Position numbers and translations under genes: made by a program. Shown in pieces: positions 1 through 36,174 of a DNA stretch of 64,000 nucleotides (positions within the stretch are counted from its first letter, which is position 1; every line of letters begins with the position of its first letter). Origin of the DNA: Sparassis latifolia. Its lineage: Eukaryota; Basidiomycota; Agaricomycetes; Polyporales; Sparassidaceae. Where the stretch lies: the NCBI GenBank assembly GCA_018466975.1, contig CM031552.1:806001-870000 (forward strand), written 5' to 3'. The notes under the pieces were generated by a model. It was given only the letters and a program-made list of their open reading frames with translations, was not told where the DNA came from and searched no databases.

Positions 1-1915
<1,915 letters not shown>

Positions 1916-3817: not shown

Positions 3818-3834
3818 TACTAGTGGCCGTCATC

Positions 3835-5178: not shown

Positions 5179-5199
5179 ATTCTTCTGTGTGGCCTATGT

Positions 5200-13167: not shown

Positions 13168-13618
13168 TATCCTTCAATGGCAAGTCAATCTGAGGGGCTG
13201 TTACATACCTAGAGTGAGTGAGTGGAGGTGATCCCGGGTACGTGTCTTCGTGCGCCCCCCGTTTAAAACCATTATACTCACTTTCCAACCTAGTCCACTC
13301 TTACTGTACAGCTTTCCCATTGAAGCTCTGTTAATTTGGTCTGTCTCTTCTCGAGCGAGCACTCTCATTCTCGGTATGGCATCTCGTTCTTCTCTGAAAC
13401 TCATTGCAGCATACTGTACTCTCAAAATTAATTGATTAATTATAATTAATTTTCCACGTGCACTACACCTATAGTTAGTGTGCCGCGGCATCATCCCCAG
13501 TGCTGTCACATAGAGTATATTATGGGGTACCACACTGCCGGTGGCAGGCATGGTTACCTGCGTGGTGACCCCTCGCGTGACGAAGTGAGGGTCACCACTC
13601 CAATACACACTTGGTCGT
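13168..13618. other. Non-coding flank between the pseudogene and the outer KDZ element
   Basis: It begins with TGTTACATACC at 13199 and is AT-rich around 13430-13455. It contains the second 23 bp direct repeat. No gene is recognised; a solo LTR was considered and not supported. Confidence 0.4.
13463..13485 (+). repeat. 23 bp direct repeat, right copy
   Basis: Identical in sequence and orientation to 7247-7269. It lies 134 bp before the outer KDZ element. Confidence 0.8.
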
Positions 13619-14085
13619 CACCTGGACCTCACATGTTACTAAGCTAATTAGCTTGCCATATGGGGTGGGTACGGCAAGCTAATTAGCTTGCTTCCCCTAT
13701 TTTAGACATACTGCCAGTAACATACCAAATAGCTATGCTTTCCCCTACCGGCACAAGTCCTCCGGCTATTGCGGATGACCCGAGGCTTCCGATGATGCAA
13801 TCTATAGATAGCGGGAGGTCTGGGCAGTCCATCCCGCTGGGCATTGAGTATACTGTTGGCTATTCCCGCTCCCGCCACCACGCGCGCGGCACGCCATCCC
13901 CGCCCTGGTCGGGCACGATGCTGACACCATTTTCCCCCTACTTCCCGTAGTTACTGTTACTTTTCCTTCATTTTTCCCGCCGCCACGCGCGGTCCCCGCC
14001 CTCATCGGGCACAACACCGACACTGTTTCCCCCCTACTTCCCGTAGTTATTGTTACTTTTCCTTCGTTTTTTTTGCAGTCTAATG
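13619..14085 (+). repeat. Left terminal inverted repeat of the outer element
   Basis: It matches the complement of 42190-42534 over its length, from CACCTGGACC to the TCTAATGTAAAT near 14090. It is longer than the right copy because of two internal duplications: AAGCTAATTAGCTTG appears twice near 13640-13690, and about 90 bp ending in ACTTCCCGTAGTTA is repeated near 13940-14060. Confidence 0.88.
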
Positions 14086-14235
14086 TAAATAATGCAGGCT
14101 ATTAGTTTATTGTAATGCAGTGTTTATCTTTCGCATTAAGCCTGATGTTCAACAAGATCATGTGCATAGTTCGTACGCACCTTCCGTGCCTACAGCCACA
14201 CTTGGTGCCTCATCCACAATGTTTCTGTCGTCGTG

Positions 14236-15997
14236 ATGGCGGGAGGCATGCGAGCCACCTGCCGCCAGGGCATGTCTCGATTGGTGCATGTAGCATCTCT
14301 TGTAATCTCTGGTGGATCATCCTCTCGACATGCCAAGCACCACCACGAAGCTGTTTATGGTGTGAAGGCTATTGCCCGGGAACAACAGCAAGCGGAGGAG
14401 CAGTATCGGTTGGCGGTCACAGGTAAGTAATATGGTGGATCTTGACCTGTGTCCAGCTCATATCATTCACAGGACTGGGTGCTCAGAGTCTTCAAGCACT
14501 CTCAGATATCAGAGAAGACGACATTCCCATGGGAGATGCAAGCGCTCCTGATAATCCATTCGCTAACACCGGGGAAGCAGAAGGAGCAGGAGCACCAAAC
14601 ACAGGACATGACCCTTCATCTGTGAGACCGCAGGACGGCATGGAGTGGGAAGATTTACCTGAGGTCCTTCAAGGTGATGCGTCTTTCATGCATGCTGTGC
14701 GGGACATCATCGGCTCTGAGTATGTATTATGAATGGTAGTTATTCATCATCTAACATTCTGTACACAGGTGGAAGGCACGGTGGTATAAAGATGCGCGCA
14801 CTTGGTGCCAGCGCGTGCATAGGATGGATGAGAACTGGTGGCCCCTCATCCCTGACCTTATCGATGCTTATCTTACCTGGAAATACGCTCCTGAGCAGCC
14901 TCCCAATGTGCCTGCAACTACGGATGACCCTTCCCCCTATGACTTTATGATCAACGTGATGGATTTCTACTCTCTCGCTTCGTCGGCCACCATCTCTCAT
15001 GCAGAGGACTCTAGGTCCATGGCGCACGCACTCGTTCTCAATGGCTACCTAGGGACATCACCTGTTTTCCCATTCATGGCAATCTCACTCAAGACATTGG
15101 AGCTCCTCCGGAGCTTGAGGCTCGTCAAGGCTTCATTCAGCATTGAAGCCTTCAGTAAGCTCCTGTGCCATTATTACAAGGCAAGTAATATTTGTGGATT
15201 TATCTTTATAATTCTTACCCTGCCGTGATAGGTTCCGTATCGCCATCACTATCGCACCCTCCTTTCCGACGCTTTTGAAATCTATCTCGAAATTCTGCAT
15301 GCTGTTGACAAGCGCATCTTTTCGGCACTCGGCCGGGACTCGCCCAACTGGCAGGTGCTCAACGCTTGCCCTGCTTGTACATATGAGGTGAGTAGTCAGG
15401 CTGCAGTCCGAGCATCATAGTACTCACAGTCCCACAGCTTGAAGGAGAGTCACCACGTCAGTGGAGCCGCATGTTCTGTATGGATGGGAACAATTCGCTG
15501 AAGCGGATCATGCAGGTCGGGAACCGTATTCGAGGTGATACCCGAGTCTTTGTCGATAGCGACTACTATCTGTCGCAGGAATTTGTCAATAAGTACACGG
15601 ACGAAGTGCCACCACGCCAGACCTCGAGCACCCCAAGCAACAGTGATGACCTGGAAGAACACAGCCAGGAGGACGACGTCAATTGTGGAGATCCAGAGGG
15701 AGGGGACCCGACTGACGGGGCATTCAGTGACATTATCGTTCCTTGCACGGAGAACTGGAAGGTGGCGGTGGCGGATGAAAAAAAATGCATGTGGGGTATT
15801 TTTGAAGAGACTGGGATCTTTGTGAGCGCGTGTCCCCACGGGTTCATCCTGTGGCTAATCGACATGGTTTGTAGCGGTGAGCTGTAAGTGAATTACATTG
15901 GATGCCATAAAAATTCGCTAACCTGTAAATTAGGGCAAAATATCCACTTGCTACCATTGCAAAGGTGCTGGAAGTACTCAGTGACAAGACACTGGCA
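14236..15997 (+). pseudogene. KDZ transposase of the outer element, 5' part
   Basis: Exons are 14236-14422, 14473-14718, 14768-15180, 15232-15387, 15438-15883 and 15934-15997. The protein has a short basic/His N-terminus, then WYKDARTWCQRVHRM and DLIDAYLTW. A Cys pair in CPACTYE plus DGNNSLKR is typical of the CxC1-type cluster and of the first catalytic Asp region of Kyakuja-Dileera-Zisupton transposases. It continues ETGIFVSACPHGFILWLIDM and AKYPLATIAKVLEVLSDK. Intron 15181-15231 is GC-AG (donor GCAAGTAA). The last exon breaks at CTGGCAG, where the nested element is inserted, and continues at 36175. KDZ enzymes are RNase H-fold cut-and-paste transposases acting in the nucleus. Confidence 0.88.
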
Positions 15998-16072
15998 GCA
16001 GCCCATTCAGTCATGTTTGTGAACTGGACTCCCATTTACCCTGACATTGTCATGAACTGGACAGCCAGCGGA
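15998..16072 (+). repeat. Left terminal inverted repeat of the inner element
   Basis: About 75 bp, from CAGCCCATTCAGTCATG to GGACAGCCAGCGGA, matches the complement of 36093-36167 with a handful of differences concentrated in the first 30 bp. Confidence 0.9.
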
Positions 16073-16134
16073 CGTCGGCCCATCGGTCTGTGTAAGGAGC
16101 TGTCAGCGATCAGCTCATGGCGATGAAGGGAATG

Positions 16135-17695
16135 CTGGAGCGATGGGCCCACTGCCATAGGAGTATTTCTGAGTGATCGCCCACCACCATACACAGCCAT
16201 GGCCCACCGCCATAGGTAGTGTTCTGAGCGATCGCCCACCGCCACGGTGCTATTCTGAGCCATGGCCCACCGCCATAGGTAGTGTTCTGAGCGATCGGCC
16301 CACCGCCATAGGGCTATTCTACAGCGATCGCCCACCGCCATAGGGTAGTGTTCTGAGCGATCGCCCACCGCCACGGGCTAGTGTACTGAGCGATCGCCCA
16401 CCGCCATAGGTAGTGTTCTGAGCGATCGCCCACCGCCACTGGGGCTATTATACAGCCATCGCCCACCGCCATAGGTAGTGTTCTGAGCGATCGCCCACCG
16501 CCATAGGTAGTGTTCTGAGCGATCGCCCACCGCCATAGGTATTTCTGAGCTGAGCCATCGCCCACCGCCATGGGGCTATTATACAGCCATCGCCCACCGC
16601 CATATGGTAGTGTTCTGAGCGATCGCCCACCGCCATAGGTAGTGTTCTGAGCGATCGCCCACCGCCACGGTGCTATTATACAGCCATCGCCCACCGCCAT
16701 AGGTAGTGTTCTGAGCGATCGCCCACCGCCATAGGTAGTGTTCTGAGCGATCGCCCACCGCCATAGGTAGCTATTATACAGCCGATCGCCCACCGCCATA
16801 GGTAGTGTTCTGAGCGATCGCCCACCGCCATAGGTAGTGTTCTGAGCGATCGCCCACCGCCACGGGCTATTATACTGAGCGATCGCCCACCGCCATAGGT
16901 AGTGTTCTGAGCGATGGGCCCACCACCATAGGTAGTGTTCTGAGCGATCGCCCACCGCCATAGGTAGTGTTCTGAGCGCCGGGCCCACCGCCATAGGTAG
17001 TGTTCTGAGCGATCGCCCACCGCCATAGGTAGTATTTCTGAGCGATCGCCCACCGCCACGGTGCTATTATACAGCCATCGCCCACCGCCATAGGTAGTGT
17101 TCTGAGCGATGGGCCCACCGCCATAGGTAGTGTTCTGAGCGATCGCCCACCGCCATAGGTAGTGTTCTGAGCGATCGCCCACCGCCATAGGTAGTGTTCT
17201 GAGCGATCGCCCACCACCATAGGTAGTGTTCTGAGCGATCGCCCACCGCCATAGGTAGTGTTCTGAGCGATCGCCCACCGCCATAGGTAGTGTTCTGAGC
17301 GATCGCCCACCGCCATAGGTAGTGTTCTGAGCGGTAGGCGCCACCGCCATAGGTAGTGTTCTGAGCGATCGCCCACCGCCATAGGTAGTGTTCTGAGCGA
17401 TCGCCCACCGCCACGGTGCTATTATACAGCCATCGCCCACCGCCATAGGTAGTGTTCTGAGCGATGGGCCGACCTCCATAGGTAGTGTTCTGAGCGATGG
17501 GCCCACCGCCATAGGTATATTTCTGAGCGATCAGCCCACCGCCACGGTGCTATTATACAGCCATCGGCACAACCCCATAGGTAGGGTTCTGAGCGATGGG
17601 CCGACCTCCATAGGTAGTGTTCTGAGCGATCGCCCACCACCACGGGCTATTATACAGCCATCGCCCACCGCCATAGGTATATTTCTGAGCCCATA
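16135..17695. repeat. 32 bp tandem array, about 48 units
   Basis: The usual unit reads GCGATCGCCCACCGCCATAG followed by GTAGTGTTCTGA. Variants end in GGCTATTATACAGCC or replace GCGATCGCCC with GATGGGCCC. Because 32 is not a multiple of 3, each strand shows long repetitive open frames on the minus strand that are not genes. The array sits directly inside the left TIR of the inner element and shares the core GGCCCACCGCCA with the right-end repeats in opposite orientation, so it is best read as a subterminal repeat array that may bind the transposase. Confidence 0.92.
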
Positions 17696-18300
17696 AGCAT
17701 GGGTCGCCTGAAATATCTGACTAGCCTGGGCATAGCTGAGTTATTTGCCTTGCCCTAGGTTGTCAACTGGGCTCAGATCGTGTCCGTGTCGCCTTGGTGA
17801 AGCATGGGTGGGTGAAGGAACATACCAGATGATTCGCCAGGGAGTAGCATAGGTGGATGTATGAAACATGGAGATTGGTCGGGGAAGCATGGGCGGATGT
17901 ATGAAACGTGGAGATTGGTCAGGGGAAGCATGGGCGGATGCCACACCTGGTTGCCCGAGCCAAGAAGTAGACCATACGGCGAACGGATTGTACCCAAGTC
18001 AACCGAAGAGCACGAAGTAGACGAGGATGCGGACGTGTGCAAATCAGCGCATTTGAGCCGAAGGACACCACAGAAGAAGGGGGCCTGACGCCGAGTCGTT
18101 GCTCATGCGGCACCTCTTGCTCAGACCTATCGCCCACCGCCATAGGTGTAGTTCTCAGCGATCAGTCAACCGCCATGGGCATATTTTTCAGTGATTGATC
18201 CACCGCCTAACAGGGCAATGATGGAGCTACCGCCGCCAATAATTTCCACGTAATCCACCCATCATTCCTCCAATTCTGGTTAGCTCACTATCAGCTCTCC
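17696..18300. repeat. Degenerate subterminal sequence of the inner element
   Basis: It holds three tandem copies of a unit around GAAGCATGGGCGGATGTATG (17820-17945) and a few further degenerate copies of the 32 bp unit (18125-18215). No gene is seen. Confidence 0.6.
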
Positions 18301-18320
18301 TTGCAGTATCACACTCTCTC

Positions 18321-18660
18321 CCACTGTGGGAAGGGTTGGCGAACTGTGGCGAATATCCTTCGCCATCTGAACATGGAGTTCAGAATGACTTCGCCAAACT
18401 CTCCCAATTGGCATCGGCGTTTCGAGACATGCATCAGATACAATTTGGGATGTGCCCTTCTGGGTAGAGTATGTGGAGACGAATGGCGGTCCTTTCCACC
18501 GTGAGTAGGGTTGGCGAACTGTGGTGGATATCACTCGCCATCTGAACATGCAGTCCAGAATGACTTCGCCAAACTCTCCCATGTGGCATTGGCTTTCGAG
18601 CCATGCATCAGATACCATTGGGGATGTGCCCTCCTGAGGAGAGTATGTGGCTACTATGTT
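18321..18660. repeat. Tandem duplication of about 175 bp
   Basis: Two head-to-tail copies (about 18321-18500 and 18500-18660) share blocks such as AGGGTTGGCGAACTGTGG, GACTTCGCCAAACTCTCCC and GCATCAGATAC. They differ at perhaps one base in seven. The function is unknown; it lies between the subterminal array and the transposase. Confidence 0.75.
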
Positions 18661-19687
18661 TCGCCTTACCACACCAGGTACATTGCCCAGGTTCAAAGAC
18701 ATGACAACCTTATATTCGACACACTACAGCACGAACGGACGCCTGGCATTGGGCGATTACATTCCTAACTCACGCAGCTGCCGCGTCGCCTCCTGCAGCT
18801 CTTCCAGCACCACATCCAGGTTCTGATCTGTCCTCTGGTGCAACCAACTAGTGAGGTTCGCGACGCGAACATGCAGCTGTTCAAGCTGCACCAGTGTAGA
18901 CTCGGAGACGGTGTACACCTTCTCCTACGTTCTCGAGGTTCAGCAAGACTGTAAGGTGCTGGAACGCACCACTCACCCAGGATCACCAAGTTTGTACCAC
19001 CAGGCCTCCATAGGGCTCCCGCCGCCCAACCTGACGATCCCATTTCCACCAGTAGTCGGGTGAATCCTCGAGTAGGTTCTTAGGACGAGGAACGAGGGTG
19101 GTGGGGCGTGGAATCGCCTTGACGTCAATGCTGATGGGGCGCAGAACTTCGCGATTGAAAGTGCAGACGGTGAGGACACTGGCGATAACTCCGCCATGGT
19201 CAATATGGTCAGCATGACCCGCCAACGCGAGGTCGCCACAGATACCCCTGACGGCGAACTGCACAGGACTCAGCAGGGTCAGGCGATATCAGCAAGAAAG
19301 GCGTACCATCTCCCGGCGCAAGCCTTCCTCCCAACGGACCTTGGTGAAGTGATCTGGGTCAGGCTCCAGTGCCAGAACAGCTTCTTGGATCCTCCAAGTG
19401 TAGACTTCCAACTGCAACCTCCCTCTGGAGAACAGGCAGGGGCGCGCATCTGATGTTGAAGACTGGGCAGACATGACGGTGAGTGGATGAGCCGAGGTTG
19501 ATATCTGATCGACCTTATCTGATGTCTGATGTCATGCGATTGGAGAGCACATGCCGAGATGAAGCCCTCAGGCGAGGATGGAGGTCACTTCGCCAAATGT
19601 GATATTGGTGAGTAGGAATTACACACATGACGATCACTACATCGATATAGCAAATATGAATATGCGTACACCCCAGTGAACCCTGAC
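18661..19687. other. Inner element, no gene assigned
   Basis: Short minus-strand frames (for example 18983-19264) have protein-like stretches but no family I recognise. They could be a 3' exon or downstream remnant of the KDZ transposase. The TGGCG/CGCCA word is frequent here. Confidence 0.35.
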
Positions 19688-22600
19688 TCAAAGCACATTT
19701 TCATCGCCCGCCCTTTCGTCCTCAATGTCCAGGGCGAGGATGTGGCTGAAGGCGTCAGTGGCGTGGCTGGCGAAGGTCCGCCACATACTCACTTGCCTGG
19801 CGGCATAGCAAACATGACCCCGCCAGGAAGGATCCGTCATCTCGAGCCAGTGAGCCCATCGTTCCGCATTCCGCTTGAAGGTGGCTATGGTCCAGGCCAT
19901 TTCCGAGTGGACCAAGACACGCCCTCCTCCATCTCTCATATCGAGCTCTGCACGCAGCCAATTCACTCTATAGACTGGAGGGTAAATTAGCAGGAGGCCT
20001 AGAGATCGATCAGACAATTACGAACACTCGTCCATCCATTCTGATGAACCTCGATCTCCAGCAACATCCACAGTCCAGAACCAAGCCAGGTTGATGTTCC
20101 TGAGCCCAGAGGTGCTAGCCTCAATGACGGCAGTCTTCACGTGCAGGTCCTTCTTATCCAAAGGGCGATAGAGGGCCAAGTCTTCATCGGTGGCGCCAAG
20201 CGCATAATGGCGCGCCGGTTGGCGGAATAGAGCCTGGCGCAGGCCAAGACGGTCTGATCGGCAGCATGAACCTCCGCCTGTGCACGGGTCATGGTTCCGA
20301 CGCTGTTGGCGGACGAACCTCTTGCGGTAGAGGTAAGACTTCAGTCCAAGCGCCATGCGGCTCGTGGAGGATGTCATTCATCAGGCCTTTGCGCAACTCC
20401 AACTCTTGGGCCGCCAGGGTCTGGAGCCCGCTGGCGACGGCGCCACGAATCCGATCTGCGAAGGTAAATTCAAGGAAGCTTGCTCGGTGGAATCGCATCC
20501 TCGCCATACTCAGCGCCCTCCGGTGTATTTGAAAAGGATTCTCATCCAAGGAATCCCAGAGCGCACCATCGCCACGATCTTCCATGGCGGGAACGCCCTC
20601 CAACCTTCCCATGAACTTCTCAGAGCGACGTTGGAATGTGAGAATGCTGACTTCGAGGCGCTGACGGCGCCGAGAGTCTTGAGGTCCTCCGCCACGCTCG
20701 GATTTTGACCGCCTTGCGGATATCATTCGCAAGCTTAAGCCTGAAGGCCGCCAGAGCTGTATTTTTGTAAAGACGAGGCAAACTCACTGTGCTTCTTGAA
20801 TTTTGAGGCCAGTCGACAACCATCCGCGGTGCCCTTCTCCAAGCCCTTGGCGGACTCCTCGCCCGCCAGTCTGAGTTGGGTGAGGTCTTTACCCGGGCTT
20901 GCATTCACGCCAACTACATGCCACACGACGATGGAAGGATACTCACCCTTCCTGAGCTGGACATCGAAGGTGTCCATAATCTTCGGATCATTTTGGCGAG
21001 CCTCCATAGCGTCGTCGCACTCCTTCTGCCATGCCTCAAGGACCTCCTCATCTGTGGATGCAGATAAAGCTTCAAAGGACTCCTTGCTTCTTGGGAAGCC
21101 CAGGAGCACGCGCTTCCACTTTGTCATCAAGGTTGGCACTGTAGGCAGCATAAGGCAGGTGGCAAATAGGGAAGGAGGAACCAGGCTCACCCATGCGAGT
21201 CGCCTTCTTCCAGTTGGAGTCATTCATGTGATCGCCAAGGACTTCTTGGCGGTGAGCTCGGTCATGCCCCTGGTACTGCCTGAGACCTCATTTGTGGGCG
21301 CCACAGGGTCTCGATGACCTCGCCATCGACCATACCAGCGCCAACTATAAAGTTGGGCGAGAACCGCTGGAAGCAGCAATCTTGGTGTCCGTGCACATGA
21401 AACAAGCCGATGCCTTGGTCTATCTTGAGCTCGAAGGGCATCCTCAGATAGGCGCTGTGGCGGAAACGCTTATGACATGGACGCCATACTGGCACATGAT
21501 GTCGCATATGACGAGGACGAGGGTGATACCGTGAGGGTCAGGAGCGCATTGCTGAGAGAGTAATCCATATTCATTTGTCTGCAGAGGGTGCGCGGTGAGA
21601 ATGAATCATGACAAGAGACATATGCGAACCTTTCTCCCTTCTGGAAATCGACGACAGTATGAGGGACGAAGAAACCATGTCTGGCGCAAGCAGTGGCCCC
21701 GATTCCTGTGGCGCCGAGGTTGGCGCGATCCACATTGGCCTGATTGACAGCGCGGTGCTCATGACAAGTGGAGCGCTGGTGGGCTTAGGAGTCAAGGGCG
21801 GAAGAAGAACGTGCAGCCAGACACGCACCTGATGGGACTCCATGGCCACCGCCAGATGAGCCTTGTAATCCTCTTGGCCGACCATGAATGCCTGGCCGCC
21901 ACTGAGGGCGACGCCCTCCTCGGGTGCTTCATCTTCATGTGCTCTGCACTGAAATTGCCATCCATGACAAAGCCGCGCTTGAACTTCCACTGCACTGGAT
22001 CCGCTTGCCAATCAAAAGGCAGGTTGAGCCCAGGCTGGGGACAGGCGGGACAAAAGATGGCGAGGCCAGAACTTCCACAGGAGGGCATCGCATCGTGAGA
22101 AGCCGTGCCACTTGCGATATTTGAGTTGGCGCCATTGGCGGGACACCCGCATCAGCTCACGATAACGGTCCTGGCGAGGAACTGGCATGAACGGTTGGGC
22201 CATGGGAATGCATGTGAACACTTACAGGAACGGTGCCAGGGAAGGCATTGCTCGTGACCCGTTTGAGCTTGCTGTAGTAGTTCAATGCCGCCGTCTTGCA
22301 CTCTTTGTTCTCCAGAAGGAAATCGTCGAGGACGGCGAATGTGAAGGCGGTATGGGGATCCTTGACGGTACCAGGGTAAAGTCCCATTTGAAGAAGCTGC
22401 ATGTCACGCTCCACTGCCATCTCACACTGGCACCAGTCAACGCCGATATGGTGAACGCCAGAGATGTCGACAATGACTATGATCCGATTCCCGTAACTGT
22501 CACGGCGAGGTGGCCGGGAGAGCACCGGTGGCACATCTTCCTCCCAAGTGGGATCGGGAGCATCGTCGGTTTGCCTTGCTTCACCGTCAAGGGTGCCTGC

Positions 22601-23352
22601 CAGAGGTGCAAAGTTGAATGGGACCTCGCCATCATCTGAGACCTCGCCATCATGTGCATTTAGGTCTTCATTGGAGGCATTCCAGAAATCGGACCCCGGG
22701 GCCACCACCGGCGCAGGGTTGTTATGTGCTGTGAAGGCGCCCAGAGGGCAGGGATCTCCGCCATGCCCCAAATGGATGCAGACGCCAACCCGATACAGTG
22801 ATGCCGGCTCAAAATACTGACCCTGCCAATGCTCTATCCGATGGAAAGGAGCACGCTGATGGCCGTTACGACAGCAGTCGGTACAGGTGAGCGGTCTGCC
22901 CATACAGTCCAGGCATCGCCACCGTCCCTCGCCAACCTTGCATTCCGCACAGTTTCTGGGCTCAGGCGGGCTTCCATCTCGACAATGGCATGAAGATAGT
23001 CATCACGGTGGGGTATCCAGTCCTCATGAAGTCATTCTGGGTCTATCGCGCATGGTCAGACCGTCAGATGGTCATGGCGGAGTGCCCACCTTTGTCTTCC
23101 GAGCCGCCGGATCCAGCTGAATCGGCACACCTATGTTGCCCAGGACGTCGCCATCATCCAAGTTAAACAAGGAGCCTGAAGCTGGAGCCTTCGATGGACT
23201 TTTGGAAGGCGATGGCACGTTTGAACCCGTGGGCATGGGCAAAGGTACGCCCACATAGCGTACTCCCTAGTGGTCTGCTTAGCTACCTTGGTCACAAACT
23301 CAACCTCGTCATCCAGGTCTACAACGAGCCTGCTTTTGTTGCGCCTGCTCAT
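19688..23352 (-). pseudogene. CxC2-type KDZ transposase of the inner element
   Basis: From the ATG at 23352 the frame starts MSRRNKSRLVVDLDDEVEFV. A CxC2 cysteine cluster follows at 22960-22760 (CAECKVGEGRWRCLDC, CTDCCRNGHQRAPFHRIEHW, then LGHGGDPCP). Next come VDISGVHHIGVDWCQC and KTAALNYYSKLKRVTSNAFP. The KDZ core is spread over 22090-21280: FCPACPQPGLNLPFDW, DGNFSAEHMKMKHP, GATACARHGFFVP with VDFQKGER, an HKRFRHSAYLRMP segment, and FHVHGHQDCCFQR to GMVDGEVIETLW. C-terminal conserved parts are near 20200 (FWTVDVAGDR) and 19950 (MAWTIATFKRNAERWAHW). Introns are likely at about 22165-22220 and 21560-21620. Frame changes near 23275, 22960, 22075 and 21925 show decay. The protein would excise and insert the element. 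Confidence 0.88.
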
Positions 23353-23748
23353 GGTTCAGGTCAGTGGGGAGTCGATTCCAAGCTCAATCGATGAGCATTG
23401 TGTCCCTATCGCACAACACAACACGCAAATCACACACGGTCTTGCTGCCCACCAGACTACTCATCAAGGTGGTTAAGAATGGCTGCAATGCCTGGGCCTT
23501 ATCACCTCGTGGTCTCTTTAGGCACCATATCAGCGTTATGCAGATAAGGATGCCATGTTGGCGAGAGGTCCGCCAATTGTATGTCGCCTCAGTGCTAACT
23601 TTGCCTTGACTCGGAGTAGCATAATGTTCAAAAGGGAAACGTGTACACCTTGAGCTGAACACTGTCGAGATGTGAAATGCGCACTGTACCGCGCGCTCGC
23701 CAACCTTCAGCTAGGATTCAGAAATTTGTGACTCCATACATTTCGCCA

Positions 23749-25204
23749 TCACCTCCGCCAACTTTGTCCCGCCAATGAAGCTGCCATCGACAGTCTCCAT
23801 CCCCTGCATAGTGTTCTCATCTCCAGCAGTCTTTGGCATGATGTCCCTCTAATAAGCGAGCCAGTTAGGACCTGTTCTGAGTTAGGAATGCAGACTCGGT
23901 GATGAACTGTGCACATGCCAATGTGTGAGGCATAATATGAAGCTTGCATCCAGTGGGGCGCCGGAATGCCTAGCCTGTTCTGGACACCCTCTCGCATGAA
24001 GTATGCATAGACGAGCCTTTCGCCATCTGCTCGAGTGACGCCATGACGAATCGCCTTTCCACAGAAGGCTATGACAGTTCCAGGACTATAATCGATGGCG
24101 ACACGCATGGCGGGGAACTTCAACCACGCGCAAGTGTAGTTGCCCAACGTCGCCAACAGGTCGTAGAAGGTGTATCTTGTCTTGCTATCTCGGTGGAAAG
24201 GAGTTTCCCGGTTGGCGATCACCTGGAGCGCATTGAATGGCGACGACCAGTTCAGCGCCATCTCTCGCAATTCTGGGTCTTGCTGGATCAAACCCAAGCA
24301 CTGGCGTCCTGCGGCATATAGTGTTGGGTGAACGACGGCCAGGATGGCGCCCAGCAATGCGGAGGAGTCATGAATATCACGCAGCCAACTTCTTCCGCCC
24401 TCAAGCTTCAGGCTGGCGGAGGTCTCCAGCCTCCCAGACTCCATATGCTGCAAAGGCTGTCCAGACGCAAGGCAAATGGCGTGGCGAGGAGACCCACCTC
24501 TCTTACTTGTTGGAACCAACCTGGCGAGAGACACAAGGAGCCCGCTGGGAATTGGGCACACTCCTCAGGAGGCAAGAAGTACAACGGGTTGTGTCGCCAA
24601 CTGGCGGTGGTGCTGGAAGGCTTACTGGCTGCTATTGCTGGGTGTAGGGCCCTGGTCGCTTGGAGCATCTTCGTCTGACAAATTTGTCAGATCACAGTGC
24701 AAGGCTGGGCAAGCCACTCACCTGGCGGTCTGGTATCAACACTCTTGGAAGTATCCAAGCCAAGATGCGTCCGTGCATGTCCACGAGGGTGGCGGGCTGG
24801 TCTATGCGTATTTCGCTCTCACCAAATGGAGGAGGCCACTTCCGTTCCAGTTCTGCCTCGAGGACTTCATTCTGCCCCGTGGGCTGAATCGAAAGGCTGT
24901 CGCAATATCTATCAATGTCCCACTGCAGCCTTACTATTACAATGGCGTGATCAGTGTGATCAGACCTGCGGCAAGACTAATGACTACCAGGATTACGGAT
25001 GGCCTTCACAAGAGCATCTGCAATGCCATTGCACTCCAATAGGAGGGCGGATGGCATGGACGGAGGCACTTCTATAGATGGCGCAGAATGGGCTGCATGA
25101 GTGGCCAGATGGAGCTTTCGGCGGAACATGAGCTCCAAGACTCCTGCTATCTGATCGGTCAGTGGCATGGGTGACAGATTGCTCATCTTGATACTATCTG
25201 CCAA
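23749..25204 (-). pseudogene. TET/JBP-family 2-oxoglutarate/Fe(II) dioxygenase
   Basis: The minus strand reads an N-terminal part with ECNGIADALVKAIRNPG (25030), VDMHGRILAWILPRV (24770), a Pro/Phe segment with SPGWFQQ (24530), and the core: HxD in TPFHRDSKTR (about 24190), YDLLATLGNYTCAWLKFP, PGTVIAFCGKAIRHGV with the distal His (about 24040), and DGERLVYAYFMRE with the Arg that binds 2-oxoglutarate. The iron-binding triad is thus intact. Fungal TET/JBP enzymes oxidise 5-methylcytosine and are known to travel with KDZ transposons. A short insertion with stops near 24970-24990 and frame changes near 24480-24560 suggest a pseudogene, although some breaks could be introns. It lies just upstream of the transposase on the same strand. 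Confidence 0.82.
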
Positions 25205-25863
25205 TCAATGGGACGATTACAGCATGCATCGGTTGAAGGAACGCACAGGTGTATGGCGGGCTCAGGCGGTTGGCTTGCAGATGCAGGGGAGAATGTAGGA
25301 GGGGCCAGAATGGCAAAGAACAGTATGCATTCATCTGCCTGCATATTGCTTGCAAGCACGTCCCTTGCACATCTCACATGTTCATCATGCCGCCGAGCTG
25401 GACTTGATGCCGCCATGCCGGATCACGGGCCGGGTGGTCCGCCATGTCTGGGCCCTTCGTCACCGCCATCTAATTGGCCGAGCCTAACTCCGAGGAAGCC
25501 CTTTATCCCACAGATTGGCATGCAGATGATCGCCAGATTGCCTCCGCCCAGCATTCGCGAGATGAAGTTGGCGTGGTGTGCTCTGCCATAGAAGCGGCAT
25601 TCAACATTGCCTTTCACCAGGCATGAATGCTAGTGCATACCTACTACCACCTCCCGCCACTGCGAAAAATACACATACAATGCTTCAGCAGTCACCACAC
25701 ACCATGGCGAGGAGGGTAATTGGTGTAAGCCCAAATGGGCCATCAGCACGTGCATGTTGAGTTGTGGGCGGCCGACGAGGAAATGGACAGAGCGCTGCCC
25801 GTTGAACTATCGACCCCCTTCACTGTCCCAACACAAAAATCTCATCCTCGACATCGAGAAAGC
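25205..25863. other. Divergent interval between TET/JBP and the HMG-like gene
   Basis: Minus-strand frames at 25183-25617 may hold further 5' exons of the TET/JBP gene, but no conserved motif is recognised. The interval must also contain the promoters of both genes. Confidence 0.35.
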
Positions 25864-28800
25864 ATGCCGGCGAGATTTGTAATTTTGACGGAGCATCAGC
25901 CCATACTCTCTGAGAAGCTGCGGTCTTATGACACGGCAGATGCCAAGGGACGCAAGACTCTGGTTCAGAGCTTGCGCCAGAAGCTGAAGACACAGTTTGT
26001 CGACACGTCAAATTATGACGACATCATTGTGGAAACTGTGAGCAGTGTTTCATGTCTGTGAGGTCCCCACTAACTCTCACCGCAGAAAATTTGAGAGTGG
26101 CTCAATAACACGCCCACCATGCGCAGGAGAAAGCGACGAAAAAGTGTATGCATGTTTCTGGCAAGCCCAATGCCTTCAAGGTGTGGGATGCGCTGGAGAG
26201 GGACAAGGTGACTGAGGCCGCACGAGCACTCGCCGCAGATAAGGGTTGCAATGTCTCCAAGGTGTGGAGAGTCGCACGGAGTGCCGAATGGGCAAAACTG
26301 TCCGAGGAGGAGCAGAAGGTGTATGAGGAAAAGGCGGAAAGTTGGCGCAATGGCACTCTGGATGATAAGACGAAAATGAAGTGCGTACCTCCTGTCACGT
26401 AGCATAAGGCAAATCCTGACCTAAGACAGGCTGAGGGAGCAGCGAATGATGCAATATCTGAAGAAGTTCGCCAAGACTATGTGGGACACCATGGGCATTC
26501 GCATGGCATTCATGCTAGCATATCCGAAGGAAGCGGGGAGTCTGAAGGTAGAGATGTGAGCGTAGACCATCCGACTGTCGCCATCTGCTAACCCCCGAGT
26601 GAAGGGTGGAGGTCAACCACGCCATCACCAATGGAACTCCATTCGGGGCCTATCCTGGGTGGCTGCGTGCTTACCAGCCTCTAGCAAAGGTGTTCTCTGA
26701 GTGGGCCAAAGGCGAATACGGTAAGAAGACCTCAGTTGCATTGTCGCTGGCACACTGACCTGATTCCTTAGGTGTGACTGAGACTACGGTGATGGTGAAG
26801 AAGACACCTGCTGATTGCATGCGGGCCATGGACAAGATTCAGTTGACAGCCAACGGTTTTCCTCTGCTCCCATCGGTGCCCGAAGGTATGGCGGAAGCAC
26901 CTCTCAAGGTGATGAAGGTACAAGTTCGAGACTTCATGAATCATCACTACGGTATGACACTCCCACTGGGTGTTGAGAGATGCTGACCAGTTTACAGCAT
27001 TGGCGAAGGGTGTTCGGAACTGCAAGTCGCCATGGACGAAGCTGAACAGCATAGACGACATCAATGAGGTTATTCCAGCAGAGATGCTACCTGAGAACTT
27101 CCAGTGGATCGATCCCTCAAAGATGACAAGTGTTCCCGTTCGTGCCCTCCTCGACCACTGGCGGGCACGCCAAGAGGAACATGGACCTGAGCAGACCATG
27201 CGATTCACCCAGTACTTCGACAAGGATGGCGAAGCTGCTCCCGCCAAGTATGATCCTCTTCCACCACTTGACGGATCAGCACAGGCATTAGAAGAAGGAT
27301 CTGAACATGAGGTCCAAGAAGCACTCACACCGAAGAAGGCGGGGAAGGCGAAGAAGAAGGGTAAACCTGTGCGCAAGGTCACGGGAAAGGCGGCATCGAA
27401 GGCGACAAAGGGCAAAGCGGCCCCTGGCGGAGCCAAAGGCGGTGGGCGTAAACGCAAGACGAAAGATGCATACGACTCGGAAGATGATGCCAGAAGCAGC
27501 CAAGACTCTGATCGGAGTTCGCCAGATATACCCAGCATGGCTTCCGAAGAAGATACAGCCAGCGATGAAGATTCAGGGGATGGCGAGAGCGTGATTGCGA
27601 ATAAAGCGAAGGGCAAGGCAGTCGCCACCACCAATGGACGTAAGGCTAACAATGGTGGTGCACCTCAAGTGAGTGGTAGCGGCGGTGCCAAGACGAAGGC
27701 AAAGCGAGGTCTCCAAGACCTTCCTCTGGGCGAACTGCACAGATTTGACACAGAGGAGACCGATGAAGCATGGAGTGAACTGGAGCCCAGTACAAAGGAG
27801 CTCAGGCTTGAGCTTCAAGGCCGAGCCCCGCGTCTCACTGGCGGGAGTACTGTGGGGAGTACTGTGCCCCACCTCGTGAAAAGGAGAGACGTGTTTCTCG
27901 CCACCCTTTCCGTCGAACTGCGATACCAGGATATGCTGAAGGAAGTCAAGATTGCGACTGTGGTGAGCTCCTTTTGTGGGGATTCATAGCCACTATTGAT
28001 CATCCGTCATATAGCCCCAGGTGTATCGTTTCGCCAGGTATGATCCGATTCCCTGGAGCGAATGGTCGTATGGCCAGCACTACCTCCCGCCGTCATTTCA
28101 TGCAGTGGACAACTTTGACATCGTCGAGAACTGGTTGGGCGACAAACCATGGCTGACAAAATATCGGTTCTTACATCCACAGGGCGTACAACAATCTGCA
28201 CTCGTGATTGGTATGGCGCTGAGGGACCTCACACGATCTCAGTTCATTGAGGAGGGCGAACCGACCAACCTTCCCAACTATGTGGTGAACTCGGCGATCT
28301 CATTTGACGCAGTAGAGCAGCTGCTTCGCTGTTGCGAGATCATTACCTTGGACATGGTGGAAGGGAACGTCACCCATGCCATGGTGAAGCCAGTGAGCAA
28401 GCCTGCCATATGCGGTGCCCCACAAGGTGGCGATGGCCTTGGGGGCCAGGAGGAGCAGGAAGGTGATGCCTCTGCAAGAACTCACGATGGCGCTGCTACT
28501 GCTGCCAAAGTTCACAAGGCTCACCAGCCTGCCCCCATGGCTGACAAACCAATCATTCCAAGTGGAGGAGACGAAGGGCCGAGCCAGGAGACCAGTGGTG
28601 GGGCCTCTGACGATGGCAAAGAGGACAATGCACACTTGTCTGTACCTAGCAGTGGTGCTGAACGACCGCCACCGCCTCCGTTTATACCTAAGACGAGGAA
28701 GGCCACAGCCACGGAAGACCGTCCATCAGGTCAAGCCAAAGCGCTCCAGGGAAGGTCGATCACTGATGCCCTTCAGAGTAATATCCTCGACAGGATCACT

Positions 28801-29229
28801 CGCAGTCAGCGTCAAGCGATGGATGAGTCGCCCGCCAAGAATACCCACAGTCAGCATCCACTAGGAGCTGTGAAAGATTTGAAGAAGCTTCCTGATCCAA
28901 AGCGGAAACGTCAACCAGCACGTCCCGAGCCCGATGGCGAAGACAGCTCTGGCGAAGACAATCCGCCACCTCGGAAGCGTGGACGTGGTACTCGGGACGA
29001 GTTGGTAGTGGCCTCGCCGAGGAAGAAGAATGCGAGGGCCGAGGACTCGGATGATGGTGACAAGCCTCCCGCAAAGCGAAGACGAGCTCTGCCTCAGACC
29101 CCGGAGGTCAAGGACAAGGGAGAAACCAAGCTGAAGCCGGTCCGTCTGGGGAAAGCAGCCGCCAAAGTGAAAGAGAGTGGCCAAGTTGGCGCAGGTCGCA
29201 AGACCCGCAGTGGCGGCACCAGACCTTGA
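25864..29229 (+). pseudogene. KDZ-element accessory protein with HMG-like segment and basic tails
   Basis: Predicted exons: 25864-26037, about 26086-26380, 26431-26557, about 26605-26720, 26772-26951, 26998-27962 and 28021-29229. The N-terminal part holds an HMG-box-like stretch (NVSKVWRVARSAEWAKLSEE and on to KVYEEKAESW). A globular middle follows (MLPENFQWIDPSKMTSVPV). Then comes a long Lys/Gly-rich linker, a second globular block (HYLPPSFHAVDNFDIVENW) and a charged C-terminus with AT-hook-like PRKRGRGTRD. A TGA at 26092-26094 replaces a probable Arg codon and a 1 nt frame change follows near 26115, so this copy is damaged at its 5' end. The pattern suggests a DNA-binding helper; its true role is unknown. 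Confidence 0.6.
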
Positions 29230-29445
29230 CAATATAACTCCAGTTCAAAGTAGACTCGTAGGCTTTCACATTGTTTAATGTGACCCATAGATCTACATAG
29301 GTAAAGCCATGGAGATGGTGGCAATGGCGAGGAGAGTTGGCGAGAACTTCAGCAGGCATTCAGTTGACTTGGAGTGGCAGTGGCGAATCGAGTGCATGGA
29401 GATTCCATGCTAGGTTAAAAAGCATGTATATCAATACTCTAATGA

Positions 29446-32400
29446 CTACACATTGTGGCTATCTGGGCAAAAGGCGGTGAAGACCATGGTGGAGTCGACC
29501 TTCTCTCGGAATGCGTCCAGAGACTTTGCCACCAGCGAGGTTTCCTCTCTCGCCGTCGCCACCTCCTTCCCCACCTTCTTCGCTTCATCCAAAGCGGACG
29601 TCGCCACCGCCATCGAATCCTCTTTGGCGAGCACCAATTCCATCTCCAGCTTGCTCGCTTGAGCGATCGCCTCTGCCGCCGAAGACCTGAGCTCCTTCTC
29701 CATGCTGTCTGACCGCGCTGCCTGGAGCTCCATCGAATGACGGAGGTCGGCCAATTCACCCTGCAGCTTGTCGACGTCCGCTTGGCTCACCATCTGGTTC
29801 GCGCCTTGCTCCAACCTGTTGACCTTCTCCTTGAGCTCTGGCAGGCAATGTCGCTTGGCAACGAGGTCCGCCACCGCCAACTTCACGCTCTCCTGAAGCT
29901 CGATGGTGACCAGCCTGCGAAACTCCTCCATGGCCAACTTGACCTCTTCGCGAATGCTCCGGGCATTTTCTTGAAATGTGGATGGCGGGTTGATTCGCTG
30001 GAGTGCCGCTGTGATCTCTGCCTTGACGGTGTTGAGGTCCGCCATCCTCTCCTGGAATTGGACTTCCATCCCGTCCTTGTGCACCAGGAACTCCTGTCGC
30101 AACTCGGCACAATTCGCGCAGTCATCGTTGGATGACTGCGAGGTTTCTTCGCCACTGGGGGTGTCGCCTTCGTTCACTGGAGCGGGACTTCCTGTAGACA
30201 CTCGCTGGACGTCACGCAAGTGGGGTGCTGTATCCCTGGTCAGCGCTGCATGGATTCGAAGCTGTGGCGGGCGCACTTACCCTTGCTGGTCGGAGGCACT
30301 GCTCTGAGGCAGTTCGCCTTCGCATCCCTTTTCGCCTCCGCCTCCTTCTTCGCTGCCTTGCGGTCCAGTGGGGTGCCCCTCTTAGCTGGCCTTCGCCCTT
30401 CATCGAGATGTCCTGCCTTCGCCAATGTGGAGGACTTCGCTCCCTTCGATGCCTTGGATATCTCCAGGGAGGGCGTCACCTCCTGTGCCACCTCGGCAGC
30501 TCCTGCGCTCGTCTCGTGGGGCATCAGCAGCGAACGCCGCTGATTGTCGTGTGGCCGCTCCAAGGACGCGCGCTGTTTCATGGTTACATCGACTCCAGCT
30601 GCGACAAGATGTCCTGCTTACCTCATCCTCTGCCACCTCTGCCTGATACTCTGGCGCATCCTCTGGTTCATCGGCGACTGGTGTCAGCATGCGCTTGCTG
30701 CTGCTAGCTTGCGGCGGAGCAGCTGGCCCTGTTTGGAAGGCCATAGCCCGCACCGCCTCCATTGCCAGCCTGGCGGCTTCCTCCATGCCATCACCTTCCG
30801 CCAGAGGCATCTTGGCTGCTGCCTTCGGAGCACTCGCCTTCGCCTTCCTGGTGATCACGGGCACCATTGGGCCCGAGCGACCTCCCATCGCCACCCTTGT
30901 TGTCTGCCCGCCCTCCTTCGCAACAGACTTGGCAGGCGGGACCTCATCCGGCTCACGTACTGAGGTCCTGGTGACCTCGCCACCATCTTGCACACCTGAG
31001 TTTTGGCTCCTCACCGGCTTTGCCTTGGGTCCTGATTTCTTACCTTCGCCAGGTTTGGTGACCGCACCAGACTTGGCAGGCACGCCAGACTTGGAGACCT
31101 CGCCAGAGTTGGCGACCTCGCCGGAGTTGGACAGAGCCACAGCTCCAGTGGCGGTGGCGGACTTGGTGGTGCGCTTGGACTTCGACGATTTCTCCACCGA
31201 GGCCTCGCCTTCAGCGTTGGCTTCATAGGGCGTGACGGTCGCCTTCTGCTTCGTCGCCTCGACCTCCTCGCCACCCTTGACCATGGAGCTGGATGCTGCA
31301 GCATTGCACGTCTTGGTCTTCTTCGGCGGCTTGCGCTTCGACGCTCCCATGACCATGGGTTCTGCACCATCGGGCTCATCGGAGTCGACCTTGACGTCGT
31401 ATGGAGGTGGCGACGTGGGCAGTGGCTTGCCCTCTACCACCAGCGCTGCGCACATCTCTTGGAACTCACGCTGTGCGGTGTGTGAGTTTCCTCGCAGGGG
31501 CACGCCGTCCGTGTTCCTCGGCGCGATGCTGCAACTGACGCCTCGTGCTGCACATTCGAGGCAGCGACTGAAGTTGGCGGTGTTGAGCTTGCATGGCCAC
31601 TCTTTCTCCTGGCAGCCAACGCAAGGGACGAGCTGCAGGAACATTAGCACAGGTCAATGTCTCACAAGATCGTTACTCACCGAATCTGTTGCATGTGCCC
31701 ACATGAAGTCAGACACGCGGGTGGATGTCTTTTTCCACATGTCCTTCTGCGACACCGTCACCTTCACCTTCGCCTTCGCCGATGCCTTACCCTTCGCCGT
31801 CGCCTTTGCCTTCCCCTTCGCCTTTGCCTTCAGTGCGACATGAGGCGTCGCCATCATCCTCGTTGTCTGTTTGACAGGTTTGGCAGGGGCGTTCGTCTTC
31901 ACAACACCGTCGTTAGAGTCCCCTGCGGTCTTGGCGGGTAGATTGGAAGGTGGTGCCGGAGTCTCATCTTCGCTTTCAATGAACTCCTTGCTCTTGTATT
32001 CCTTCGTCGCACGCTTCTTCTTTGGCGGCTTGACGGTCGGTACTTCCTTTTCATCGCTTGACTCCTTCGCCTTCCTCTTCCCGCTCTTCTTCGTGCTCAC
32101 CTTCGAGCCCTCCACCTCGGTCTGCGCCATCCTCTTCTGCGCATGCTGCGCTCGGCCAGAGGTGGTCGGGGCCTCGCCTTTCTCCTTTGCGACCTCGATC
32201 GGCTTCATCCACTTCGCCTTCGGAGCTGCCTCCTCATTCTCACTCTCCTCACTCGACTCTGTGATGACCGCCTTGCGCTTTCGGAGTAATGGGGCAGCTG
32301 GCGAGATCGATATTGGTCTGGCAGTTGGCGGAGGGGGCGACGCCGCATCGACCTCGATGGATTCGGGCTGGCCTGCACCCGGCACGTCTTCCGCCATCTC

Positions 32401-33223
32401 ATCGTCGTCATCTTTGTCGGCATCGTCGTCCTCGTCACTGTCGGCATCGTCGTTGTCCTCGCCCTCCTGCTCCTCTCCCTCTCCCTCTCCCTCTCCCCCA
32501 TCCTCTTCCTCGCTCATCGCATGCGCCGCCTTCCCCTGCGCCTTCTCCTTGCTCTTGCCCTTTCCCTTGTCCTCCCCCGCCTCCACGTGGACGATACGCT
32601 CACCCACCATGCCTGTCCCGACGTCGTTGTCAGCTCTCTCCTTGCCTTTCCCCTTGGTGACGAGGTCCCCGGTAGCCAGGTCCTCCTCGCCATGTCCCTG
32701 GGTGTCGTCATCGGCTGGCACATTGCCCCAGCCCTCTGCTGGCATACTCTTCACCGGTGGCAGCTTGCAATATGGATCTGGTGCAGTCAGTGTGTCGCTC
32801 GACGCCTCACAACGCTTGTGACTCACCTTCAGTCCACCACTGCCTTCCCAGGTCCTCACACTCCCCATACTCGTGCACAGCCAGAGGGTACCTCTTGTAT
32901 ATCCTCTCGTCGTCGTTCGATATGTGGTCCAGCCGCGCCAGGGCCTTCTGCTGGTATGCCCGGGTGAATTCCAGCAACGCACTGATGACGATGCCAGGCA
33001 TCCTCAACGACTTCAAGGGCTGCGGGAAACTCTTTTCAAGCCGACTCTGTGTGGCATATTCGGTGAGGGTATGCCAGACCTGCGACCGATGACTTACCAC
33101 TTCGAGGTAAATCCTCGCCTCCCAGTCCGAATAGCGAGGGTCGTCCTGGTGAGGCGCCGCTGCAACAATGGCCGTCAGTCACGCGGCCTGCAGAACATAG
33201 TTGGGGTCGATATCCAGAGTCAT
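29446..33223 (-). pseudogene. KDZ-element accessory protein: Cys cluster and coiled coil
   Basis: The start is ATG at 33223 (MTLDIDPNYVLQAA), followed by TGA at 33179-33181 where the frame continues LTAIVAAAPHQDDPRYSDW, a likely CGA to TGA change. A helical region with RQWWTE leads by an intron to a long low-complexity acidic/Lys part (32800-31680). A C6-like cluster follows after an intron: CVGCQEKEWPC, then CLECAARGVSC (31640-31540). More Pro/Lys-rich sequence follows, then introns near 30550 and 30240-30280, and finally a coiled coil of about 200 residues (30180-29450) ending CPDSHNV. The Cys spacing resembles, but does not match, the fungal Zn2Cys6 fold. A frame change near 32760 is possible. 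The role is unknown; it may be a DNA-binding partner of the transposase. Confidence 0.6.
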
Positions 33224-33592
33224 GGCGAGCTTGGCAGAAGAAAGCGTGAGGGTGTTTCAAAAGCAGAGGTTGCAGTACAGCGGAGGCGGAGCAGATGACG
33301 CTATGAGCTGGCAGACGCGATCTGCACCAAGTTCAACTTCACACGCCACGCGACCACGTGCTTTGCACGTGATCGCTGGACTTGCGCGATTTCTCAAGTC
33401 TCTCAAGGTCAGTGTGACCTGCCGCAAGTTCTCATGGCTCCCAACAGTAAGTTCTATTGCTCTCCTTGTGGAATCTGACTCCTTTGTGATGTTATCTGAC
33501 CTTTCTATGTCATATCAATCCCCTTTCTACAACTGATCTCCCGTGATCCAGGACTGATCGAAGACTTGTCTGCTCGCCACAATCTACCTGCC

Positions 33593-34991
33593 ATGGCCAG
33601 TGACACGGAACCTCCTGACACGCTGGACATTACGATGGGCGAGTCGGATGAGGAGGATAGTATCGCTGAGCCCCGTCGTCCACTCATTTCGGATCTCCTT
33701 GACTCTCCTGGATCTGCCCAGATCTCCTTGCCTCTCCACTCTGCTTCTCAGACACCCCTCACGCCCCGCCACACTACCCCGTCCCTGGCGGCTCCATTTG
33801 CGCCATCCAACTCGCCACATGAGCATCTTCACTGCCACGCCTCACCAAAGGTACAGGCGTCATCTGGATCTGTGGCGCCTGTGGAGGGAAGTCGCGCACT
33901 TATTCCTGATCCTCTGGCGCCAGCTTGGGATGAAAGTCGTGGCAGTTCGCCAATCCATAGGCGTGCACTCATCTCAGATTCCACCCCCACTGTGCCCGGT
34001 GGAATGTTCGACTTCGACACTCCTGGCATCTCGCCAATCCCTCGATGCGCCCTGTTGGAAGCTACTCCCCTTCCTCCACCAGCTCACACTTTCGACTTTC
34101 GCACTCCTGACACCTCCCAACTCCCTCGACGATCACTCATCGCTGAGCCCCTTGATGCTACGCCACATACATCCATCCACTTCGATAGTCAAGCAAGTAC
34201 GCCGATGGCGAGGGGCATGCTGGTGGATGAGACACTTGACACAGAACCAGTGCCGAAACTGCTGAACTTTGACAATAGTCCTCCCGTCACGCCAGGACGA
34301 TGGCGAGCTCTGGTGATAGACAGCCCTGGCGCGACGCCTGTGCGTAGCCAGGTCCAGTGGCTAAATAGTCCCAGCACTTCGCCTCCAAAGAGGCGGCCTT
34401 TGTTGGACGATGTTTTAAGTCCACCGCCTCCGCCATCGGCGCCCTCTCACTCGCCAGCTCGCACTTTCGATGACAGCAATTTCCGCCATGATGCACCTGT
34501 CATTCACTATATGAAAGGCAGCATCGAGCTAGTCACTGTTACTTCCAGGATGCCAATTCTGGCAGCACTTCCAGATGAGCTGCCGATCCATTGTCCCACC
34601 CATTGGGAACAGGTTCCAGGCTTATTCCCAGATACCACACAGCTGCTGCCAATGGCAGTCCCTGGAGAGACGAATGCCGCTTCTGGCTCACAAGTGGCCC
34701 GCCTCGGTAGATCGTTTGCGCAGATCGCAGCAGAGGCAGACAGTTCCAGTGAGTACATCCCTGGCAACCTTCAGTCTGATGTTGACCTTATTCATAGCGG
34801 ACGATGACGAAGGTGATAGCTTTGCGGTTAGTCGTTGTTGCGCCATGTTGCGGGAGCGCATTGTACGTCTTCAGCGTGAGCTCAACCTCACTGAGGATAT
34901 GCACGTTGCGAACCTCAATGCCAGCTCGACCGTGTTCCAAATGGGGTACATTCTGAGGGACATTCGTGGCGAGGCGTATCGCAGCAACTGA
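33593..34991 (+). CDS. Pro/Ser-rich protein with an eightfold short motif
   Basis: Exons are 33593-34750 and 34798-34991; the intron (GTGAGT to ATAG) keeps the frame. The ATG at 33593 begins MASDTEPPDTLDITMGESDE. Residues 20-300 repeat a motif of the form R-R/A-x-L-I/L-x-D/E followed by a Pro/Ser/Thr spacer with an FD(F)DTP-type stretch: RRPLISDLLD, SRALIPDPLA, HRRALISDST, PRCALLEATP, PRRSLIAEPL, ARGMLVDETL, WRALVIDSPG and KRRPLLDDVL. The second exon is helical and basic (MLRERIVRLQRELNLTEDMH), possibly a short coiled coil. Unlike its neighbours no stop or frame break is seen. No family is recognised. It lies between the Cys-cluster gene (divergent) and the right subterminal repeats. Confidence 0.6.
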
Positions 34992-36092
34992 ACTAGTGTC
35001 TTTGAGCGTTCTGGTGTTAGCAATATATGACCACTATGTAACAGCTTGTATACCAGTACAAAATGGATACATTCACTTCTGCATCACTAAGCTCTAAAGC
35101 CCATCGCTCCTCCAGTGTACTCTTGAGATGGGCGGACTGCGCTCGCCATCACCAAGGCATGTTGTTGCCAGCAACTGGCCCATCGCCAAAGGACCTGAGT
35201 GAAAGCTTCACTGCATGGGAATATCGCTCTGCCAGCAAAGGGCCCACTGCCAAAGGTCAGAGGGTTGGCCATCGCCAAGCCGTGTTTTCGCCACCAATTG
35301 GCCCTCCGCCATGAGTGCTGGTGAGTGATGGGCCCACCGGCAAAAGTCAGAGGATTGGCGATCACCAGAGCACGTCATCACCACCAATGCGCCCGGAAAC
35401 TGCAGGGCTGTATGTGACAATGGGCCCATTGGTGGCGATGACATATCCTGGTGATTGTCAACCCACTGGCCTTTGGCGGTGGGCCGATTGCTGGCGATAA
35501 CATGCTCTGGCGTTGGCCAACCCACTGGCTTTTGGCGGTGGGCCGATTGCTGGCGGAAACATGTCCTGGCGATGACCTATCCCATGGGTGCTTGCAGTAA
35601 GGCCCTCACTGAGGGTGCTTTGGCGATGGGCCGACTGCTGGCGATAACATGCTCTGGCAATCGTCAACCCTCTAACCTTTGGCGGTGGGCCCATCCTTCA
35701 GGTTACACTCTGGGCGATCGGCCCACTGCTCATTCGTCATACTTTGGCGGTGGGCCGATTGCTCAGACAAACATGCTCTGGCCATGGCCAACACTCTGAC
35801 CTTTGGCGGTGGGCCCATCCGTCATCTTACACTCGTGGCGATGGGCCCACTGCTCATTGATCATACTTTGGCAGTGGGCCCATTGATGGTGATAACATGC
35901 TCTGGCGTCGGCCCACCCTCTGACCTGTGGCGGTGGGCCCATTGCTTAACGGTTACAACACTGTAATACGCCCTGCTAGTGGGCCGAGCACTGGGATAAG
36001 AACACTAGCGGTGGGCCCACTGCTAGTATCCCACACATGAAAGATATGGGCCCACTGCTGGTAGAGGTCAACATGGTGACAATGGGCTGACA
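34992..36092. repeat. Right subterminal repeats of the inner element
   Basis: From about 35060 to 36090 irregular units contain TTTGGCGGTGGGCC(C/G)ATTG and CTGGCGATAACATGCTCTGG. The core GGCGGTGGGCC is the complement of the GGCCCACCGCC core in the left array, so the two ends are inverted relative to each other. The units are less regular than the left 32 bp array. Frames across this stretch are not genes. Confidence 0.85.
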
Positions 36093-36167
36093 TCCGCTGG
36101 CTGTCCAGTTCATGACAATGTCAGGGTAAATGGGAGTTCAGTTCAGGTAACATGACTGAAAGGTGTG
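36093..36167 (-). repeat. Right terminal inverted repeat of the inner element
   Basis: Complement of 15998-16072, ending ...AACATGACTGAAAGGTGTG at 36167, immediately before the second CTGGCAG. Confidence 0.9.
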
Positions 36168-36174
36168 CTGGCAG

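Follow-up and report, generated by a model that had tools for sequence, protein, structure and literature searches.

The locus

The window analysed here is a 64,000-nucleotide stretch of the Sparassis latifolia genome (GenBank assembly GCA_018466975.1, contig CM031552.1, forward strand), corresponding to C1:806001-870000 of the 41.4 Mb, 22-contig genome in which all searches were made. It carries two transposable elements of the KDZ superfamily, one of which lies within the other. The outer element spans 13619-42534 and measures 8,740 bp once the insert and one copy of its duplication are subtracted. It encodes the KDZ transposase domain (PF18758) and is bounded by terminal inverted repeats (TIRs), both of which are features of KDZ DNA transposons. 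The inner element (15999-36167, unstranded) is 20,169 bp long, has CA..TG ends and carries a TET/JBP gene. We state with high confidence that it sits in the KDZ-domain exon of the outer element, where it is flanked by a 7 bp target-site duplication.

The termini of the inner element were read directly and compared among copies: the element begins with CAGCCC at 15999 and ends with GGTGTG at 36167. The 7 bp sequence CTGGCAG occurs on both sides (15992-15998 and 36168-36174, both on the plus strand), is exact, and abuts the element ends. The original prediction, made from the letters of the window alone, had placed CTGGCAG at both edges and had the right edge correct at 36174, but its left coordinates (15991/15997) were one base too low. 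The left TIR covers 15999-16083 (plus strand) and the right TIR, with the GGTGTG end, 36082-36167 (minus strand), as defined by aligning the two ends and by genome matches to 15991-16100 and 36065-36180. The pair is inexact, with 77 identical positions, eight mismatches and one gap between 85 and 86 bases, including 64 bp at 95% identity; a longer blastn alignment of the ends (93 columns, 89%, E 6e-26) takes in the flanking duplications. The original prediction had put these inverted repeats at about 75 bp. Their divergence is no measure of the age of the insertion, because in other copies, too, the left and right ends differ from each other in their first bases.

The insertion splits the KDZ domain of the outer transposase. 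PF18758 positions 2-99 match within 15396-15887 (94 bits) and positions 118-217 within 36156-36707 (126.8 bits), against a cut-off of 26.6 bits. The left portion of the exon ends ACA CTG GCA G, and the sequence to the right of the insertion carries on GT TAC GAC. Removal of the unit and one CTGGCAG rejoins the frame (...CTG GCA G / GT TAC GAC), as had been claimed, and the outer paralogues are contiguous at this point.

The outer element ends CACCTGG..CCAGGTG. Its left TIR (13619-14091, plus strand, beginning CACCTGGACC) is in pieces and was delimited by an inverted match to 42193-42534 and by other copies of the end; its right TIR (42193-42534, minus strand) was delimited by the reciprocal match. 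Three pieces align, one of 38 bp at 100% and two, of 300 and 106 bp, at 93% each. Just outside are the putative target-site duplications TTGGTCGT (13611-13618, plus strand) and TTGGTCGC (42535-42542, plus strand, read directly). The open reading frames (ORFs) of the outer element at 14755-15228, 38977-39504 and 37146-37610 gave no Pfam match at E 0.01.

Uninterrupted paralogues of the insertion site

The genome contains four paralogous places at which the outer sequence runs through the insertion site without interruption, with a 7 bp overlap between the two flanks in each. When each flank was searched alone across the whole genome, the left flank returned five rows and the right flank six, the window's own included. 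Overlaps were found at C11:4273453-4273459, C10:5271701-5271707 and C10:3996887-3996893. The fourth empty site, C11:1283261-1283267, takes its left side from the flank search and its right side from the alignment of match L030. For two right-flank rows (C5:3.840 and C6:1.215 Mb) the left-flank search gave no counterpart. The 7 bp word itself is far too common in the genome to be informative as a query.

One of these places is the sister copy at 4.27 Mb on C11 (L025), which spans about 8.75 kb end to end, compared with 8,740 bp for the outer element of the window once its insert is subtracted. Its positions 1-1567 align at 96.2% to the transposase gene left of the insertion (14431-15998, plus strand), and its positions 1561-3354 align at 96.7% to the rest of the gene and the sequence that follows it (36168-37958, plus strand). 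The 7 bp at the site are read once, as CTGGCAG in L025 and as CTTGCAG in L024 and L030. A KDZ profile search of the genome gave 164 matches, with 150 of 151 candidates scored, and each of the 27 best (L009-L035) is a single stretch that passes unbroken over the profile position at which the insertion lies; some of them have internal stops. In its four paralogues the outer transposase gene is contiguous at this point; homologues discontinuous there, which would have spoken against the prediction, were not seen among the sequences examined. The proposed nesting of one KDZ element in the transposase exon of another is borne out by these empty sites and by the other copies with the same ends described below. 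In the KDZ core of L025, GYN stands in place of the GYD of the window's outer copy. This sister may itself be inactive.

The inner element belongs to a high-copy family

The suggested search for other copies with the same TIRs revealed a high-copy family. At least 40 genome sequences match the left end (query 15991-16100, 97-100% identity) and at least 40 match the right end (query 36065-36180, 94-100%), the window's own ends included; both counts are lower bounds, since 40 candidates were scored in each search, out of 125 for the left end and 126 for the right. Pairing the ends by nearness gave 22 units with that of the window. In 17 of these, again including the window's, a KDZ core, a TET/JBP exon and the far ORF occur in one order over 19.3-21.5 kb. 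One unit of 14.3 kb has KDZ and TET only, and four of 8.3-12.4 kb have none of the markers entered.

Eighteen units other than that of the window were checked on both flanks for duplications, and both ends were readable in 17 of them. All 17 have the ends CAGCCC..GGTGTG; copies ending elsewhere, which would have spoken against the predicted boundaries, were not seen among those examined. The 18th copy (C17) carries a substitution in the motif that was searched for; it too ends in GGTGTG, and no matching duplication is present in its flanks. Of the 17 readable copies, seven are flanked by an exact 7 bp duplication and one by a 6-of-7 match, while nine show none.

Gene content of the inner element

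The inner element encodes a KDZ transposase on its minus strand. The CxC2 cysteine-cluster exon (22157-22999) matches PF18803 with 95.1 bits (cut-off 27). The adjoining KDZ core (21055-22160) is frame-broken, and its match to PF18758 is partial: an open 91-codon piece (21265-21537) matches positions 130-188 with 39.6 bits.

A TET/JBP dioxygenase exon follows on the same strand (23752-24564; PF12851, 72.7 bits, cut-off 34.9). It is open over 271 codons, a stretch that may take in intron sequence at its ends. The translation resembles CcTet of Coprinopsis cinerea (PDB 7vpn, E 6.7e-26), with the HRD motif and the second H aligned. Among 64 genome matches to this exon, 22 (the window's included) cover at least 269 of the 271 residues at 91-100% identity. 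Ten of these near-full copies are listed without an internal stop; for the other 12 the position of the stop is not given.

The region 26958-34807 encodes large ORFs without assigned function. Three are on the plus strand (26958-27989, 28015-29229, 33500-34807) and three on the minus strand (30400-31653, 31654-33003, 29446-30276). For five of them a Pfam search at E 0.001 found nothing; ORF 29446-30276 gave weak matches, all below cut-off. ORF 31654-33003 recurs across the family (39 matches). ORF 30400-31653 contains a cysteine-rich stretch (CVGC...CLEC), which by eye resembles a zinc-binding motif. Just inside the left end, repeat analysis identified a tandem array with a 32 bp unit in 46 copies (16195-17690, unstranded).

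A broken transposase and probable mobilization in trans

The inner element had been described as complete, which holds for its ends but not for its transposase. Compared with a relative that has an open frame (L113, C11:1292951-1294150), its KDZ core is 97% identical, with 12 gap columns in 1,202. By eye, at least five of these are gaps of a single base within coding sequence, the exon boundaries likewise having been drawn by eye on the basis of GT..AG borders and the reading frame. A DNA search with the core gave 38 rows, 32 of which cover essentially the whole query. Nine family copies, all at loci found by this search, have an open frame of 384-387 codons over PF18758 positions 98-217 without a stop. 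Three others (C5:4316067, C5:1338036 and C10:3645250) have the same KDZ score and frame length as the window's inner copy, and their core DNA is 98-99% identical to it. Both copies on C5 are flanked by exact 7 bp duplications.

Because its KDZ core is frame-broken, the window's inner copy is probably non-autonomous. The simplest reading is that one lineage lost its transposase frame and was then moved by intact relatives. The same partial match occurs at three other loci, two of which have perfect duplications, so movement in trans is probable for this lineage.

Two points count against this account. Its support comes from the partial matches that the copies have in common and from DNA identity; the full sequences of the other broken copies do not enter into it. 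In addition, the TET exon is in pieces in two of the broken-core relatives (C5:4.31 Mb and C10:3.65 Mb), so retention of TET is not universal.

Alternatively, the inner element could be autonomous, with the gaps in its KDZ core being sequencing errors or intronic, so that its own transposase moves it. Most of the coding gaps do lie in short runs of a base (by eye), and the frame is open in both the CxC2 and the TET exon. However, several gaps fall within one exon of the open relative (again by eye), nine copies are open across this region, and random error would not explain the same partial match in three copies elsewhere. We consider autonomy unlikely and mobilization by intact relatives the better account.

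We tentatively speculate, as a possibility we rate below even, that a 20 kb KDZ lineage with a dead core, in which the TET/JBP exon is still open at times, inserts by means of the transposase of intact relatives, and that its TET/JBP passengers could in turn erase methylation across the family in trans.

Weighing the nested insertion

Several observations weigh against the reading of both elements as transposed units with target-site duplications. Ten of the 18 other inner copies checked have no matching duplication. Some of the pairs must be wrong, recombined or misassembled, because ends were paired by nearness and because one duplication, CAAGCGT, is split between a left end at C19:40252 (L057) and a right end at C7:1758603 (L099). 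At the empty site C10:5271701-5271707, the opening base of the 7 bp is unmatched. The putative duplication of the outer element is imperfect in the window, where 7 of the 8 bases are shared by TTGGTCGT and TTGGTCGC. Five other outer-type pairs had their flanks compared by eye, and three of them (C5:2.81, C7:1.71 and C6:1.21 Mb) lack a clean match of either 7 or 8 bp; the pair at C10:3.99 Mb matches at 8 of 8 positions and the C11 sister at 7 of 7.

The split of CAAGCGT between C19 and C7 suggests either exchange between copies or misassembly. A highly repeated 20 kb unit might have been misjoined into the outer gene during assembly, and the high copy number of the family and the split duplication itself would fit such an error. 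A misjoin is not expected to leave an exact 7 bp duplication abutting the true element ends, though, and the flanks here continue a single gene that is contiguous in four paralogues, which makes an assembly artefact very improbable. Arrival by recombination instead of transposition is the least probable explanation of all: exchange between copies may be common, given how many copies lack a matching duplication, but transposition leaves just such an exact duplication and such precise family ends at its two junctions. Misassembly and recombination were both rejected on these grounds. We conclude that the nested insertion is clean, well supported and ordinary, and that its one useful twist is the broken transposase.

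Proposed mechanism and relation to published elements

The mechanism of KDZ transposases is cut-and-paste of the DDE type. The inner element would have moved in this way, with a KDZ transposase making a cut with a 7 bp stagger. The insertion cuts the outer transposase gene inside its KDZ domain. With less certainty, the transposase may have been supplied by another copy of the family, since the element's own core is broken, nine copies are open, and copies with the same broken core have perfect duplications elsewhere. By analogy with published relatives, the TET/JBP enzyme would oxidise 5-methylcytosine and may aid the family's escape from silencing.

KDZ elements have been published, and so have TET cargo, CA..TG termini and target duplications of 7 bp. 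The co-occurrence of KDZ and TET/JBP in fungi, which the original prediction had taken as established, is indeed on record (PMC12730594). TET-bearing Kyakuja elements of Agaricomycotina are reported to lack inverted repeats, to have CA..TG termini and to be flanked by 7 bp duplications (Kojima 2025, PMC12730594); for Zisupton and the described Dileera family the duplications are 8 bp (PMC12730594). The inner element likewise combines a KDZ transposase, a TET/JBP dioxygenase, CA..TG ends and a 7 bp duplication. It differs in its inexact 85 bp TIR pair, as the two Laccaria families Kyakuja-1_LB and Kyakuja-2_LB are reported there to have no terminal inverted repeats (PMC12730594). A firm assignment to Kyakuja was rejected, as this reported absence does not match the inner element and no transposase phylogeny stands behind the assignment.

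KDZ1, KDZ2 and KDZ3 of Cryptococcus neoformans have been shown to move; they are 9.2-11 kb long, with repeats of 139-241 bp, duplications of 4-8 bp and a CxC1 cluster (PMC12810828). They share with the inner element a KDZ transposase with a cysteine cluster, TIRs and target duplications, but they carry CxC1 and no TET gene is mentioned in the accessible part of that report, whereas the inner element is 20 kb long and has CxC2 and a 7 bp duplication. The outer element, at 8.7 kb without its insert, is nearer to them in size. In Pleurotus ostreatus, CxC2 stands ahead of intact KDZ transposases (PMC7641404), and inverted-repeat motifs of KDZ and Plavaka elements have been characterised in Marasmius oreades (PMC8290104). 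CcTet, the sequence relative of the inner TET/JBP exon, is a solved enzyme with reported activity (PMC12730594), whereas the inner TET/JBP is known from its genome exon alone.

Within the literature collection searched, no paper combines KDZ, nested, transposase and basidiomycete. The present analysis fixes the ends of a TET-carrying KDZ family of about 20 kb exactly, together with its 7 bp duplication, checked within one genome against paralogous empty sites and other copies. The presence of open and broken transposases beside open TET exons would allow one to ask whether selection keeps TET/JBP independently of the transposase.

Possible further nesting and surroundings

The left flanks (1.5 kb) of 30 inner-type ends were compared with KDZ proteins. 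Similarity at E 1e-4 was found in five: the window, L040, L044, L042 and L060, the last being a match of 30 residues. The left flank of L044 is another copy of the inner family up to the element end (96.7% identical to window 19913-21396), and that of L040 is rearranged inner-family sequence. This suggests nesting at L040 and L044, seen in sequence from one side; because these flanks are themselves family sequence, the nested pair described here is perhaps not unique. Inner-type ends are clustered at C10:4298441-4364946 (L040, L044, L063, L064 and two right ends), and some of them are flanked by family copies. On C8, the end pairs L053/L054 and L055/L056 have the same 12 flank bases in opposite orientation, a pattern that suggests inverted duplications or a duplicated assembly there.

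The KDZ and TET/JBP content of the window fits a fungus. To the left of the nested pair, 1916-5193 (minus strand) holds retrotransposon pieces with Ty3-like gag, protease and reverse transcriptase. To its right are the C-terminal domain of an FGGY carbohydrate kinase (48131-49000) and a cyclin N-terminal domain (59015-60160), both of which likely belong to host genes.

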